A DNA stretch of 64,000 bases, taken from NCBI RefSeq assembly GCF_010537335.1, contig NZ_AP019711.1:248001-312000 (forward strand), written 5' to 3'. Below are positions 56,708 to 61,424 of the stretch, piece after piece. The notes under the pieces were generated by a model. That model was given only the letters and a program-made list of their open reading frames with translations. It did no database searches and was not told the origin of the DNA. The stretch comes from Amedibacterium intestinale. Lineage in GTDB: Bacteria; Bacillota_I; Bacilli_A; Erysipelotrichales; Erysipelotrichaceae. The translations under genes and the position numbers were made by a program. How positions within the stretch are numbered: the stretch's first letter is position 1; each line of letters begins with the position of its first letter.

Positions 56708-58102
56708 ATGATTATTCGCTCAATAGATGCTATTATTCGCATGCTTGATGCTGATTATATAGAAAATGGAAATATCGAAGAAAAAATTAAAGGAGTATGT
56801 ATCGACTCTCGTAAAGTTGTAGAAGGGAATCTATATATTCCTATTCATGGTATTAACAACAATGGACATCTGTTTGTCCAACAGGCAATAGACAATGGGG
56901 CTAAAGCTGTTTTATGGGAAAGAAAAGAGGAAAATCCACCAGAAGATGTTGTAGTTATTTTAGTGGATGATACAACAAAAGCTCTGCAGGAGCTGGCAAA
57001 AGCTTATCGTAAACAATTACATATGAAGGTTGTTGGGGTTACAGGAAGTAATGGGAAGACAAGTACAAAAGATATTCTTGCTTCTGTTTTGAAAGAACAT
57101 TACATCACACAGAAAACATTAGGAAACTATAATAATGAAATTGGTGTTCCTTTAACTTTGTTAAGTCTTAATGAAGATGTAGAAGTTGCTGTTGTAGAAA
57201 TGGGAATGGAAAATCTTGGAGAATTATCTTTTTTGACTCACTTGGTAGAACCAGATATTGCAATCATATCAAATGTAGGAACAGCACATTTAGAAAATCT
57301 AGGCACAATGGAAAATATCGCAAAAGCAAAAGTTGAAATTGTGGAAGGACTAAATGAGAATGGATCGCTTATTTATAATGGTGATCAGGAGTTATTAAAA
57401 AATGCTGTACGAGAAAAAGAAATTCCTGGTTCTATTTCCATACGTACATTTGGAATGGACAAGCGAAATGATTACATCGTATCTGCAGTACGTCAGAAAA
57501 AAGAGGGAATATACTTTAGCGTTACACCTTCTGAACAATCATCTTATTTTTTAGATATGATTGGGAAACATCAGGCCATGAATGCGACGGCAGCTATGAT
57601 TGCAGCGAAAGCATTGCATGTAAGTGATGAAGAAATTCAAAGAGGTTTTTCAAATATTGAAAAGACAGGCTTAAGAAATGAATTGGTTGACTGTGATCGC
57701 TGCTTGATTTTAAATGATTCTTATAAGTCTAATCCACAAAGTGCAATTGCTGCACTTGAAACTATGGAAGAGTTTGAAGTTCCATATAAGATTGCTGTTT
57801 TAGGAGATATGCTGGAACTTGGAGAAACAAGTGATCAGATTCATTATGATTTAGGAAAAGAAACAGCAAGATTTCATTTACAGGAAATTTTAACAATTGG
57901 GGATATGGCACGATATATTGCCCAGGGAGCTTTTAATCATAATACAGATGATGTGAAAGTTGTGCATTTTGAAAATAAAGAAGAACTTTCAGAATATCTT
58001 TTCCCATACATGCATAAAGACTGTATGCTTTTGGTAAAGGGTTCACGTGGCATGAAGCTAGATGAATTAGTAAATGTATTAATAGAAAAAAATAAGAAAT
58101 AA
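56708..58102 (+). CDS. murF: UDP-N-acetylmuramoyl-tripeptide--D-alanyl-D-X ligase
   Basis: 464 residues. Mur ligase layout: N-terminal substrate domain (GVCIDSRKVVEGNLYIP), ATP loop VVGVTGSNGKTSTKDIL, EMGMENLGELSFLT, and the C-terminal domain with ILNDSYKSNPQSAIAALE and LGDMLELGE. Adds the terminal D-Ala-D-X dipeptide to UDP-MurNAc-tripeptide. AGAAAGGACG lies ahead of the ATG. The ligase that makes the dipeptide starts 15 bases downstream; if that is D-Ala-D-Ser, this MurF must accept it. Confidence 0.96.
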   Translation: MIIRSIDAIIRMLDADYIENGNIEEKIKGVCIDSRKVVEGNLYIPIHGINNNGHLFVQQAIDNGAKAVLWERKEENPPEDVVVILVDDTTKALQELAKAYRKQLHMKVVGVTGSNGKTSTKDILASVLKEHYITQKTLGNYNNEIGVPLTLLSLNEDVEVAVVEMGMENLGELSFLTHLVEPDIAIISNVGTAHLENLGTMENIAKAKVEIVEGLNENGSLIYNGDQELLKNAVREKEIPGSISIRTFGMDKRNDYIVSAVRQKKEGIYFSVTPSEQSSYFLDMIGKHQAMNATAAMIAAKALHVSDEEIQRGFSNIEKTGLRNELVDCDRCLILNDSYKSNPQSAIAALETMEEFEVPYKIAVLGDMLELGETSDQIHYDLGKETARFHLQEILTIGDMARYIAQGAFNHNTDDVKVVHFENKEELSEYLFPYMHKDCMLLVKGSRGMKLDELVNVLIEKNKK

Positions 58103-58117
58103 AGAGGTAGGAATAAA

Positions 58118-59182
58118 ATGGAAAAGTTACGTTTAGCAGTTGTTTTTGGAGGAAAATCAAGTGAATATCCTGTTTCACTTCATTCAGCAGGAAGTTTGAT
58201 TCATTCCTTGCATAAAGAAAAATATGAACTTATTTTGATTGGAATTAGTGAAAATGGGGAATGGTATGCATATGATGGAGATATAGAAAGTATCGAACAT
58301 GATCATTGGCTGCAGGAACAATACTGTACACCATGTGTACTTTCTTGCTCAACACATTTCAAAGGTTTCTTGAAATTAAAAGAGGATGGAAACTATGAGC
58401 AGATTCCTGTTGATTGTATCTTTCCAGTTCTACATGGAAAAAACGGGGAAGATGGTACAATTCAAGGGTTATTTGAATTAAGTGGCATACCATATGTTGG
58501 ATGTGGTCATATGAGTAGTTCCGTATGTATGGATAAAGAAATGACACATATTATTCTTGAACATGCGAAAGTTCCATGTGCTCCATATATGTGCATTTAT
58601 GAAGAAAAAGATATGGACTATAAAAAAATCTTTGAAAGTGCGAAAGAAACACTTGGTCTTCCTATTTTTATTAAACCGGCGAATGCAGGAAGTAGTTTTG
58701 GAATTCATAAAGTGGAAGATTTTTCTGAATTTGAAGAAAGCATGAAAGATGCTTTCTATCATGATGGAAAAGGAAAAGTGATTTTAGAAACAACTATTGA
58801 GGGATTTGAAATCGGTTGCGCTGTTATGGGAAACAAAGAATTGTTTGCCGGCAGCGTTGATGAAATTGAAACAGCAGCTCCATTCTTTGATTATGAGGGA
58901 AAATACCAAATGGTAGATTCTCATATTTATTGTCCTGCACGTATTTCAAAAGAATTGTTTGAAGAGGCAAGAAGTATGGCATTACAGGCATATCGTGCAT
59001 TGAATTGTAAAGGAATGACACGTGTGGATATGTTTGTAACACCACAAAATACAATTGTATTAAATGAAGTAAATACAATTCCAGGCTTTACATCAACTTC
59101 TCGTTATCCTACAATGATGAAAGAGGCTGGTATTGAATTTGGAGATTTACTAGATAAATTAATTGCGTTGGCAATGGAATAA
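58118..59182 (+). CDS. ddl: D-alanine--D-alanine/D-serine ligase, VanC/VanG-like class
   Basis: 354 residues, ATP-grasp ligase. N-terminal VVFGGKSSEYPVSLHSA (E16) and FPVLHGKNGEDGTIQG, ATP-binding IFIKPANAGSSFGI, and LNEVNTIPGFTSTSRYPTMM near the end. Several parts differ from housekeeping Ddl and agree with VanC/VanG D-Ala:D-Ser ligases: SEYPVSL, the omega loop FFDYEGKYQMVDSHIYCPA (~256-274) with Ile270 where Ddl has a Tyr before the PA motif, and SRYPTMM. I therefore infer D-Ser as second substrate, though D-Ala activity is not excluded. RBS AGAGGTAGG; alr follows. Confidence 0.88.
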   Translation: MEKLRLAVVFGGKSSEYPVSLHSAGSLIHSLHKEKYELILIGISENGEWYAYDGDIESIEHDHWLQEQYCTPCVLSCSTHFKGFLKLKEDGNYEQIPVDCIFPVLHGKNGEDGTIQGLFELSGIPYVGCGHMSSSVCMDKEMTHIILEHAKVPCAPYMCIYEEKDMDYKKIFESAKETLGLPIFIKPANAGSSFGIHKVEDFSEFEESMKDAFYHDGKGKVILETTIEGFEIGCAVMGNKELFAGSVDEIETAAPFFDYEGKYQMVDSHIYCPARISKELFEEARSMALQAYRALNCKGMTRVDMFVTPQNTIVLNEVNTIPGFTSTSRYPTMMKEAGIEFGDLLDKLIALAME

Positions 59183-59195
59183 AAGAGGTGAAAAC

Positions 59196-60344
59196 ATGCT
59201 GGAAAGCAAAAGCAGAGCATGGGTAGAAATAGATCTTTCAAAAATTAAGCATAATGTAGAGGAAATACGTAAAATTCTTCCTTCTACGACAAAAATCATG
59301 GCAATTGTAAAAGCTAATGCTTATGGGCATGGGGATGTTGTGTGCTGTAAAGAGTTGGAAAAATGCGGTATTGATTTTTTTGGTGTAAGTAGTATTGATG
59401 AGGCTTTAACACTCAGAGAAAATGGTATTCAGGAAGAAATTTTGATTTTAGGGTATACACCTCCAGAACATTTTCATTATGTGATAGAAAAGAATCTAAT
59501 TCAAACTTTTCTTTCTTTAGATTATGCGAAAAAGGCCGACAAATATTGCGAAGAGCATCATGTCATTATGAGAGGGCATATTAAGGTAGATACAGGTATG
59601 TCAAGACTTGGGATAATTTGTCAGGAACAGGAATACCATATTGAACAGATTGAAGAAATATATCGCATGAAACACATTAAAGCAGAAGGGATTTTCTCGC
59701 ATTTTAGTGTAAGTGATGAATTGGATGCGGACAATAAGAAGTTCACATCGAAACAAATTGAATTATTCGAACGTGTTCTTTCTGATTTGAAAAAAGATGG
59801 AATAGATGCAGGAATTCGTCATTTACAAAACAGTTATGGGATATTAAACTATCCTGAGCTGCAGTATGATTATGTTAGACCTGGACTTTTATATTTAGGA
59901 GCAACTAGCAATGATCAGATTGAAACAGTGACGCATCCTGATTTCAAACCTATTATGGAATTGAAAGCAAATATTTCTTTGGTTAAGACCATTCAGCCAA
60001 ATGTAAGTGTAAGTTATGGGCGTCACTTTATAAGTAAAGATGTACGAAAAATTGCGACAGTTTCTATTGGATATGCAGATGGATATCCAAGAAGTGTTTC
60101 TAATAAAGGAGCAGTCGTTCTTTTACATGGGAAACGTGTGCCAATCATTGGAAATATCTGTATGGATCAGTTAATGATTGATGTTACAGAAATAGAAGAT
60201 GTAAAAGAAGGGGATGTCGTAACATTATTTGGGAAAGATGGGGATGAAGTTTTGCCAATTGATGAATTGACAAGACTAGCTCAAACGATTAATAATGAAA
60301 CATTCTGCTGGATTACGGCAAGAGTTCCTAGAATATATAAATAG
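59196..60344 (+). CDS. alr: Alanine racemase-fold enzyme, possibly serine racemase (VanT-like)
   Basis: 382 residues from MLESKSRAWVEID; AGAGGTG selects ATG 59196. PLP lysine K39 in IVKANAYGHG, second catalytic Tyr in VSYGRHF, GYADGYPR and GNICMDQLMIDVT are all present. At the substrate pocket, where Alr enzymes have TINYE, this protein has TINNE (Asn367, codon 60294-60296); in VanT serine racemases the same Tyr-to-Asn change is linked to serine use. No membrane domain is fused. A terminator overlaps its stop. It may be the cell's alanine racemase, a serine racemase or both. Confidence 0.9.
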   Translation: MLESKSRAWVEIDLSKIKHNVEEIRKILPSTTKIMAIVKANAYGHGDVVCCKELEKCGIDFFGVSSIDEALTLRENGIQEEILILGYTPPEHFHYVIEKNLIQTFLSLDYAKKADKYCEEHHVIMRGHIKVDTGMSRLGIICQEQEYHIEQIEEIYRMKHIKAEGIFSHFSVSDELDADNKKFTSKQIELFERVLSDLKKDGIDAGIRHLQNSYGILNYPELQYDYVRPGLLYLGATSNDQIETVTHPDFKPIMELKANISLVKTIQPNVSVSYGRHFISKDVRKIATVSIGYADGYPRSVSNKGAVVLLHGKRVPIIGNICMDQLMIDVTEIEDVKEGDVVTLFGKDGDEVLPIDELTRLAQTINNETFCWITARVPRIYK

Positions 60345-60364
60345 CCATCTTTATGGCTATTTTT
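60339..60364 (+). terminator. Terminator overlapping the alr stop codon
   Basis: AAATAGCCAT (60339-60348) pairs with ATGGCTATTT (60353-60362) around CTTT, followed by more Ts. It should reduce transcription into the acyltransferase gene, which has little room for its own promoter. Confidence 0.85.
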
Positions 60365-60386
60365 TCAAAACAAGGAGGATTAGAGG

Positions 60387-61424
60387 ATGGAAAGAAAGAA
60401 TTATTATGCATTGGATGTGGCTAAATTTATTAGTGCTTTTTTGGTTATTTGTATACATACAGCGCTACTGGCTACGATATCTCCAGATGCTAATTTTATC
60501 TTAGTACAGATTATCGCAAGACTTGCAGTACCATTGTTTTTCATAATTTCCGGTTTTCTATTTTTTACAAAAATTAATACGAATAGGGAATGGAATGATG
60601 CTGAAAATCGTTATCAGCTAAAGCATTATTTATATCGAATCTTTAAAATTTATATTATATGGACGATTTTATATTTACCTTTCTCATACTTGTTGATAAG
60701 GGGACAAAATGATTTTGGAATGGCATTGGCACAGTACATAAAAGATTTTTTCTTTAATGGAAGTTATTATCATTTGTGGTTTTTACCAGCTTTATTATTT
60801 GGTATGTGTATTGTCTATTTTTTAAGAAGTCATTTTTCAATGCGTATGACAATAGGAATTTCCATGGTGTTATATTTAATTGGCATGGCAGGTAATATTT
60901 ATCCAGACGTATTGGAATCTATACCAGGTATCAGCACTGTATATGATGCCTATACTTCCATATTCTCAACAACCCGTAATGGATTTTTCTTTGCGCCTGT
61001 TTTTCTTTCTTTAGGAGCCTATTATGCACAGCATAGAAGAAAAGTATCTCATAATTCTAAAATGATGCTTTTCGGTTTTATTGTTTCTTTTGTTGGGTTA
61101 TGTATAGAGTGTTTTTATTTACGGAAAGCAGGATTTATGCATGATTTAGCAAGTATGTATTTATTTTTGATTCCTGCTGTTAGTTTCCTATTTGCATTTC
61201 TATTGCAGCTGGAATGGAGGGATAGACCGATTTATAAAATGTTGCGCATATTGTCTTTGCTTATTTATGTATCTCACATTATGTTTGTTGTTGTATTGTT
61301 TGCTTTATTGCCAAATGCAGGGAATTTGCTTATTTATGTATTATCCTGTATATTATCTCTTGTATTTTCTATTTGTGTTTATGGTTTTTCAAAAAAATGG
61401 AGGATATTCAAACATTTGTATTAG
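60387..61424 (+). CDS. Membrane acyltransferase (acyltransferase 3 family)
   Basis: 345 residues with about ten membrane helices. N-terminal YYALDVAKFISAFLVICIHTALL contains the family His (CIHT), followed by ARLAVPLFFIISGFLFF and YYHLWFLPALLFG, the usual acyltransferase-3 pattern. Family members O-acetylate sugars or wall polymers, and a similar domain forms the N-terminal half of VanT serine racemases, proposed to help L-serine uptake. Neighbouring alr makes that comparison relevant. AAGGAGG precedes; the FAD enzyme follows after 15 bases. Confidence 0.85.
   Translation: MERKNYYALDVAKFISAFLVICIHTALLATISPDANFILVQIIARLAVPLFFIISGFLFFTKINTNREWNDAENRYQLKHYLYRIFKIYIIWTILYLPFSYLLIRGQNDFGMALAQYIKDFFFNGSYYHLWFLPALLFGMCIVYFLRSHFSMRMTIGISMVLYLIGMAGNIYPDVLESIPGISTVYDAYTSIFSTTRNGFFFAPVFLSLGAYYAQHRRKVSHNSKMMLFGFIVSFVGLCIECFYLRKAGFMHDLASMYLFLIPAVSFLFAFLLQLEWRDRPIYKMLRILSLLIYVSHIMFVVVLFALLPNAGNLLIYVLSCILSLVFSICVYGFSKKWRIFKHLY

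Follow-up and report, generated by a model that had tools for sequence, protein, structure and literature searches.

A probable VanT-type alanine/serine racemase, with asparagine in place of the pocket tyrosine, in a native VanG-like cassette of Amedibacterium intestinale

The only Alr-type racemase of Amedibacterium intestinale carries asparagine in place of a tyrosine of the alanine racemase pocket, and its gene lies in an operon between a VanG-like ligase gene and a gene matching the membrane half of VanT. Judging from sequence comparisons, we consider it likely that the enzyme is a VanT-type, probably bifunctional alanine/serine racemase that serves a native cassette of the D-Ala-D-Ser type. 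As the VanT-type pocket change, a D-Ala-D-Ser-type ligase and the membrane gene share one operon, D-Ala and D-Ser are probably both made, yielding precursors that would bind vancomycin poorly. The DNA analysed, hereafter the window, is a stretch of 64,000 nucleotides of A. intestinale (assembly GCF_010537335.1, contig NZ_AP019711.1, positions 248,001-312,000, forward strand), and its features are collected in Table 1.

Table 1. Features of the cassette, in window coordinates
Feature	Position	Strand	Remarks
murF, UDP-MurNAc-tripeptide--D-Ala-D-X ligase	56708..58102	+	464 aa; first operon gene; TIGR01143 406.8 bits, cut-off 288.6; adjacent within relatives' cassettes
VanG-like D-Ala--D-Ser-type ligase	58118..59182	+	354 aa; omega-loop Tyr263, Arg329 in SRYP motif
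VanT-type alanine/serine racemase (putative)	59196..60344	+	382 aa from ATG; sole Ala_racemase_C protein of the genome
Asn366-Asn367	60291..60296	+	Asn367 codon 60294-60296, in place of alanine racemase pocket Tyr354
Weak terminator-like hairpin, gap between racemase and membrane genes	60339..60362	+	fold -10.9 kcal/mol, z -1.9; scan listed minus strand only
Acyl_transf_3 membrane protein	60387..61424	+	345 aa; matches N-terminal membrane half of VanT

Results

Bases 60288-60299 of the racemase gene read ATT AAT AAT GAA and encode I365 N366 N367 E368. In a MAFFT alignment with Geobacillus Alr, whose sequence was checked at K39, R136, R219, Y265, C311-D313 and Y354, Asn367 stands in the same column as Tyr354, and in an HMMER alignment it falls opposite the VanTG Asn (PDB 4ecl, ITNE). 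The two alignments agree and bear out the preliminary description, which had placed an asparagine at the Tyr354 site. K39, Y43, R136, H166, R219, Y265, Y284, C311, M312 and D313 are the same in the racemase as in Alr. It resembles the Geobacillus stearothermophilus alanine racemase in fold and in nearly all the pocket residues checked, whereas that enzyme has Tyr354 where the window racemase has Asn. According to PMC3485190, the two inner tyrosines set alanine specificity, the residue at the Tyr354 site influences substrate specificity, and in E. gallinarum VanT this residue is Asn.

The assignment to the VanT type, also made beforehand, is upheld by profiles and by the tree. The racemase scores 448.3 bits with the NCBIfam model vanT-G-Cterm and 367.9 bits with Alr TIGR00492, and an ordinary Alr shows the opposite order. 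It lies narrowly below the curated vanT-G-Cterm cut-off of 460 bits (its cassette relatives score 409-444 bits) and above the Alr cut-off of 168 bits, yet is without Tyr at the 354 site. In a quick maximum-likelihood tree, from which the column of the Tyr354 site was left out, ligase-linked racemases other than the Gln-bearing Paenibacillus ones form one clade (SH-aLRT 95) that includes E. gallinarum VanT-C (L242) and the VanT of the E. faecium vanN cluster (L243), with the cassette racemases as a subclade (SH-aLRT 99). The predicted structure (pLDDT 94.9) has VanTG 4ecl as its best fold match, with a TM score of 0.94 and an rmsd of 1.2-1.5, and its rmsd to Alr structures is about 1.9 or more among the matches listed; as VanT relatives were in the predictor's alignment, this match is supportive rather than independent. 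The PLSDB/RGI label 'vanT gene in vanG cluster' was not used as evidence, since it falls on the ordinary Alr of many species, where it could mislead resistance surveys.

Racemases were collected from 294 genomes of the order and from named genomes, and a racemase was called ligase-adjacent when its own strand carried a D-Ala-D-X ligase no more than 2.6 kb away. At the Tyr354 site the ligase-adjacent racemases have Asn (72), Asp (2), Gln (2) and Ser, Ile, Pro, Leu or Tyr (one each), whereas the others have Tyr in 61 of 71, with His (5), Gln (2), Asn (2) and Thr (1) making up the remainder; for both of these Asn-bearing racemases the contig is cut close to the gene. In the close cassette clade 45 of the 46 racemases have Asn, as do 27 of the 35 other ligase-adjacent racemases, the remaining eight of which are also non-Tyr. 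The 61-member Tyr and 27-member Asn comparison groups were chosen by residue 354 itself and are uniform there by construction; only the cassette clade and the division by ligase adjacency are informative. Since the tree suggests about one origin of Asn, the counts reflect conservation and not dozens of independent events, and the Asn looks like one old event since retained. For the same reason a two-by-two association of adjacent ligases with residues other than Tyr, which had looked like strong statistics, is taken as conservation, there being only three independent pairs on the tree. The exception in the cassette clade is G252 (L132, 6712-7887, minus strand), which has Tyr (TAT) together with the ligase Arg. 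As that genome is without another PF00842 racemase, Asn is not indispensable to the cassette.

The ligase encoded upstream had been described as D-Ser-like, and its best profile and its Van-type Arg329 support a VanG-like enzyme. Its best model is NCBIfam D_ala_D_ser_VanG (460.6 bits, short of the cut-off of 495), against 383.7 bits for the best Ddl model, and its best PDB match is VanG 4fu0. Arg329 is found as in VanC and VanN, where the housekeeping Ddl of E. gallinarum has Leu, and is conserved across the cassettes. As VanA also carries Arg at the SRYP site, this residue tells Van-type from Ddl-type ligases and not D-Ser from D-Lac; the omega-loop Tyr263 presumably argues against the VanA type. 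In VanC2 the SRYP-motif Arg matters for D-Ser. Racemase Asn and ligase Arg occur together in 71 pairs. At L155, L156 and L159 (G104, G109 and G002), which have the order murF-ligase-racemase and no membrane gene, the ligase has Leu (SLYP or SLFP) and the racemase Asp or Ser, and in Paenibacillus L093 and L095, whose racemases fall outside the VanT clade, the ligase has Met in place of Arg and the racemase Gln in place of Asn. This hints, if weakly, that the two sites change together; the ligase tree resembles the racemase tree in outline.

The four genes of the operon, murF, ligase, racemase and Acyl_transf_3, all lie on the plus strand (56708-61424). The racemase is not fused to an N-terminal membrane domain, and the preliminary description had predicted that D-Ser is made in the cytosol without a membrane-fused racemase. 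That no membrane component takes part is not supported, as the gene at 60387-61424, which that description missed, encodes the VanT-type membrane half on its own, in a protein matching NCBIfam vanT-CELN over positions 5-321 with 194 bits, vanT-L-mem with 125.6 bits and PF01757 with 105.4 bits. Because this gene lies directly downstream and matches the VanT membrane half, the arrangement reads as a split VanT with its gene order reversed. The protein keeps His24 of TMH1 of the acyltransferase-3 (AT3) motif and, in degenerate form, Arg84 of RXXR; no solved structure was matched by its sequence. A Lys for Arg in R-X10-H was considered as a sign of a non-acyltransferase and dropped, as a control AT3 protein of the same genome (L221) also has Lys. 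Neither VanXY, VanX nor VanRS was found among the neighbouring ORFs of the operon that were searched.

The cassette is found again across the family. The AT3 gene accompanies racemase and ligase in 38 of 46 cassettes of relatives, and none was seen in the other eight, in some owing to a contig end. One PF00842 racemase is present in 43 of the 50 genomes searched, and in 26 of the 50 no ligase besides the racemase-adjacent one is found at E up to 1e-25. This count omits G043 because of its broken cassette contig, and 20 of the 26 genomes are at least 90% complete. The cassette is also carried by a named Merdibacter (L038).

The genome of the window is a single contig of 2.49 Mb, 97.7% complete, in which a search for a second alr found no PF00842 protein besides the racemase. 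Class IV aminotransferases (PF01063), present in 13 of 14 control genomes, are absent from it. With a sole Alr-type racemase and no such aminotransferase, the enzyme probably makes D-Ala besides D-Ser, and as far as PF00842 and PF01063 go both D-amino acids would probably come from it. The genome has no PF01427 protein and has three VanY-family proteins, all away from the cassette. Near 2.38 Mb the genome encodes a second, Ddl-type ligase, and adjoining it a Mur-ligase-like protein of 518 aa with a hydrophobic N-terminus (L241, 1779-5264, in G000), preceded by an alpha/beta-hydrolase-like ORF.

Discussion

We propose that the racemase is a cytosolic PLP-dependent enzyme of the VanT branch in which Asn367, standing for Tyr354, would make room for L-serine while the alanine reaction is kept. 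As the sole enzyme of the Alr type it would produce D-Ala from L-Ala as well as D-Ser from L-Ser, the VanG-like ligase would join the two products to D-Ala-D-Ser, and the linked MurF would add this dipeptide to the wall precursor. The Acyl_transf_3 protein would be the membrane half of VanT as a subunit of its own, whose most likely task would be to deliver L-serine to the racemase; serine transport has been proposed for the AT3 half of VanT (PMC9558356). Against the proposal count the narrowly missed vanT-G-Cterm and VanG cut-offs, the Tyr of G252, the reported vancomycin susceptibility of a Merdibacter strain and the second Ddl-type ligase.

In an alternative reading the enzyme would be an alanine racemase of VanT descent that supplies mainly D-Ala, its Asn being a lineage marker and the ligase making D-Ala-D-Ala. 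In its favour, D-Ala must come from the sole Alr-type racemase, the Alr model is passed with 368 bits, the same cassette has Tyr in G252, and the Merdibacter strain is reported to be susceptible (PMC6538751). We nevertheless regard this reading as improbable, as the ligase has Arg329 like VanC and VanN and not the Leu of the E. gallinarum Ddl, Asn and Arg are kept together in their 71 pairs, and a VanT membrane half is kept beside the racemase in most cassettes. A still more remote reading, to which we give very little weight, is a racemase of broad specificity whose second substrate in the cell is another small amino acid, either used by the ligase or released. Non-Tyr residues at the site do occur in lysine and broad-specificity racemases, and related cassettes have Asp, Ser, Pro, Ile, Leu or Gln there; yet those characterised enzymes with Asn that are most closely related to it are serine racemases of the VanT type, and the Lyr and Bar racemases have Thr and Ala (PMC3485190).

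The fourth gene may be judged separately, since a wall or glycan acyltransferase with no racemase partner would be compatible with a bifunctional racemase. The retained His24 and the degenerate RXXR Arg84, the unknown role of the domain in VanT (PMC9558356) and the eight cassettes without such a gene downstream, some of them at a contig end, speak for an acyltransferase. As the VanT membrane halves match better than general AT3 (194 versus 105 bits) and the gene comes after that of the racemase in 38 of the 46 cassettes, we think this rather unlikely, though less so than either alternative for the racemase.

The closest known case is that of Clostridium innocuum. Its resistance to vancomycin is intrinsic and presumably due to two genes on the chromosome that lead to a serine-ended precursor (PMC8888209, citing David et al. 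2004). Racemase and ligase are each most similar to the type of the VanTG/VanG operon, with which the window shares the Asn; VanTG, however, is one fused membrane-racemase protein, whereas the halves are separate and in reversed order in the window, and unlike the VanG operon the window cassette has murF and is without VanXY or VanRS beside it. Separate membrane and racemase halves are likewise found in the split VanTm/VanTr of VanL, and the vanT-L-mem and vanT-L-cat models match the window proteins, but these stay far below the cut-offs of both models. The membrane gene comes first in the VanL operon, the reverse of the order seen here. E. gallinarum VanT-C resembles the window racemase in clade, in the Asn and in the ligase Arg, but is fused and accompanied by VanXY and VanRS, whereas the window racemase is separate and without these beside it. 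Merdibacter massiliensis is reported to be vancomycin-susceptible and teicoplanin-resistant (PMC6538751), and as its genus holds the cassette, vancomycin resistance is not to be assumed.

The point of interest lies in a D-Ala-D-Ser chemistry that would be family-wide and possibly obligate. We tentatively suggest, as a possibility somewhat short of an even chance, that in a broad part of the family the cassette is the sole pentapeptide route, with D-Ala-D-Ser as an obligatory constitutive terminus, a bifunctional racemase, and an ancestry shared with mobile vanG/vanC-type pairs. If so, the D-Ala-D-Ser terminus would be standing wall chemistry and not an inducible resistance trait. In gut bacteria of the family, a single racemase with a one-residue change of its pocket is predicted to supply both D-Ala and D-Ser, and genomes with the VanG-like ligase alone to build D-Ser-ended walls all the time. 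This would bear on intrinsic glycopeptide susceptibility, on the source of the enterococcal D-Ser resistance genes and on the function of the VanT membrane half, since that half has a gene of its own here.

Variation in gene structure was also seen among the relatives. At L136, L139 and L143 murF and the ligase form one open frame (785, 808 and 774 aa), as if fused, and in G241 (L143) a stop interrupts the ligase match.
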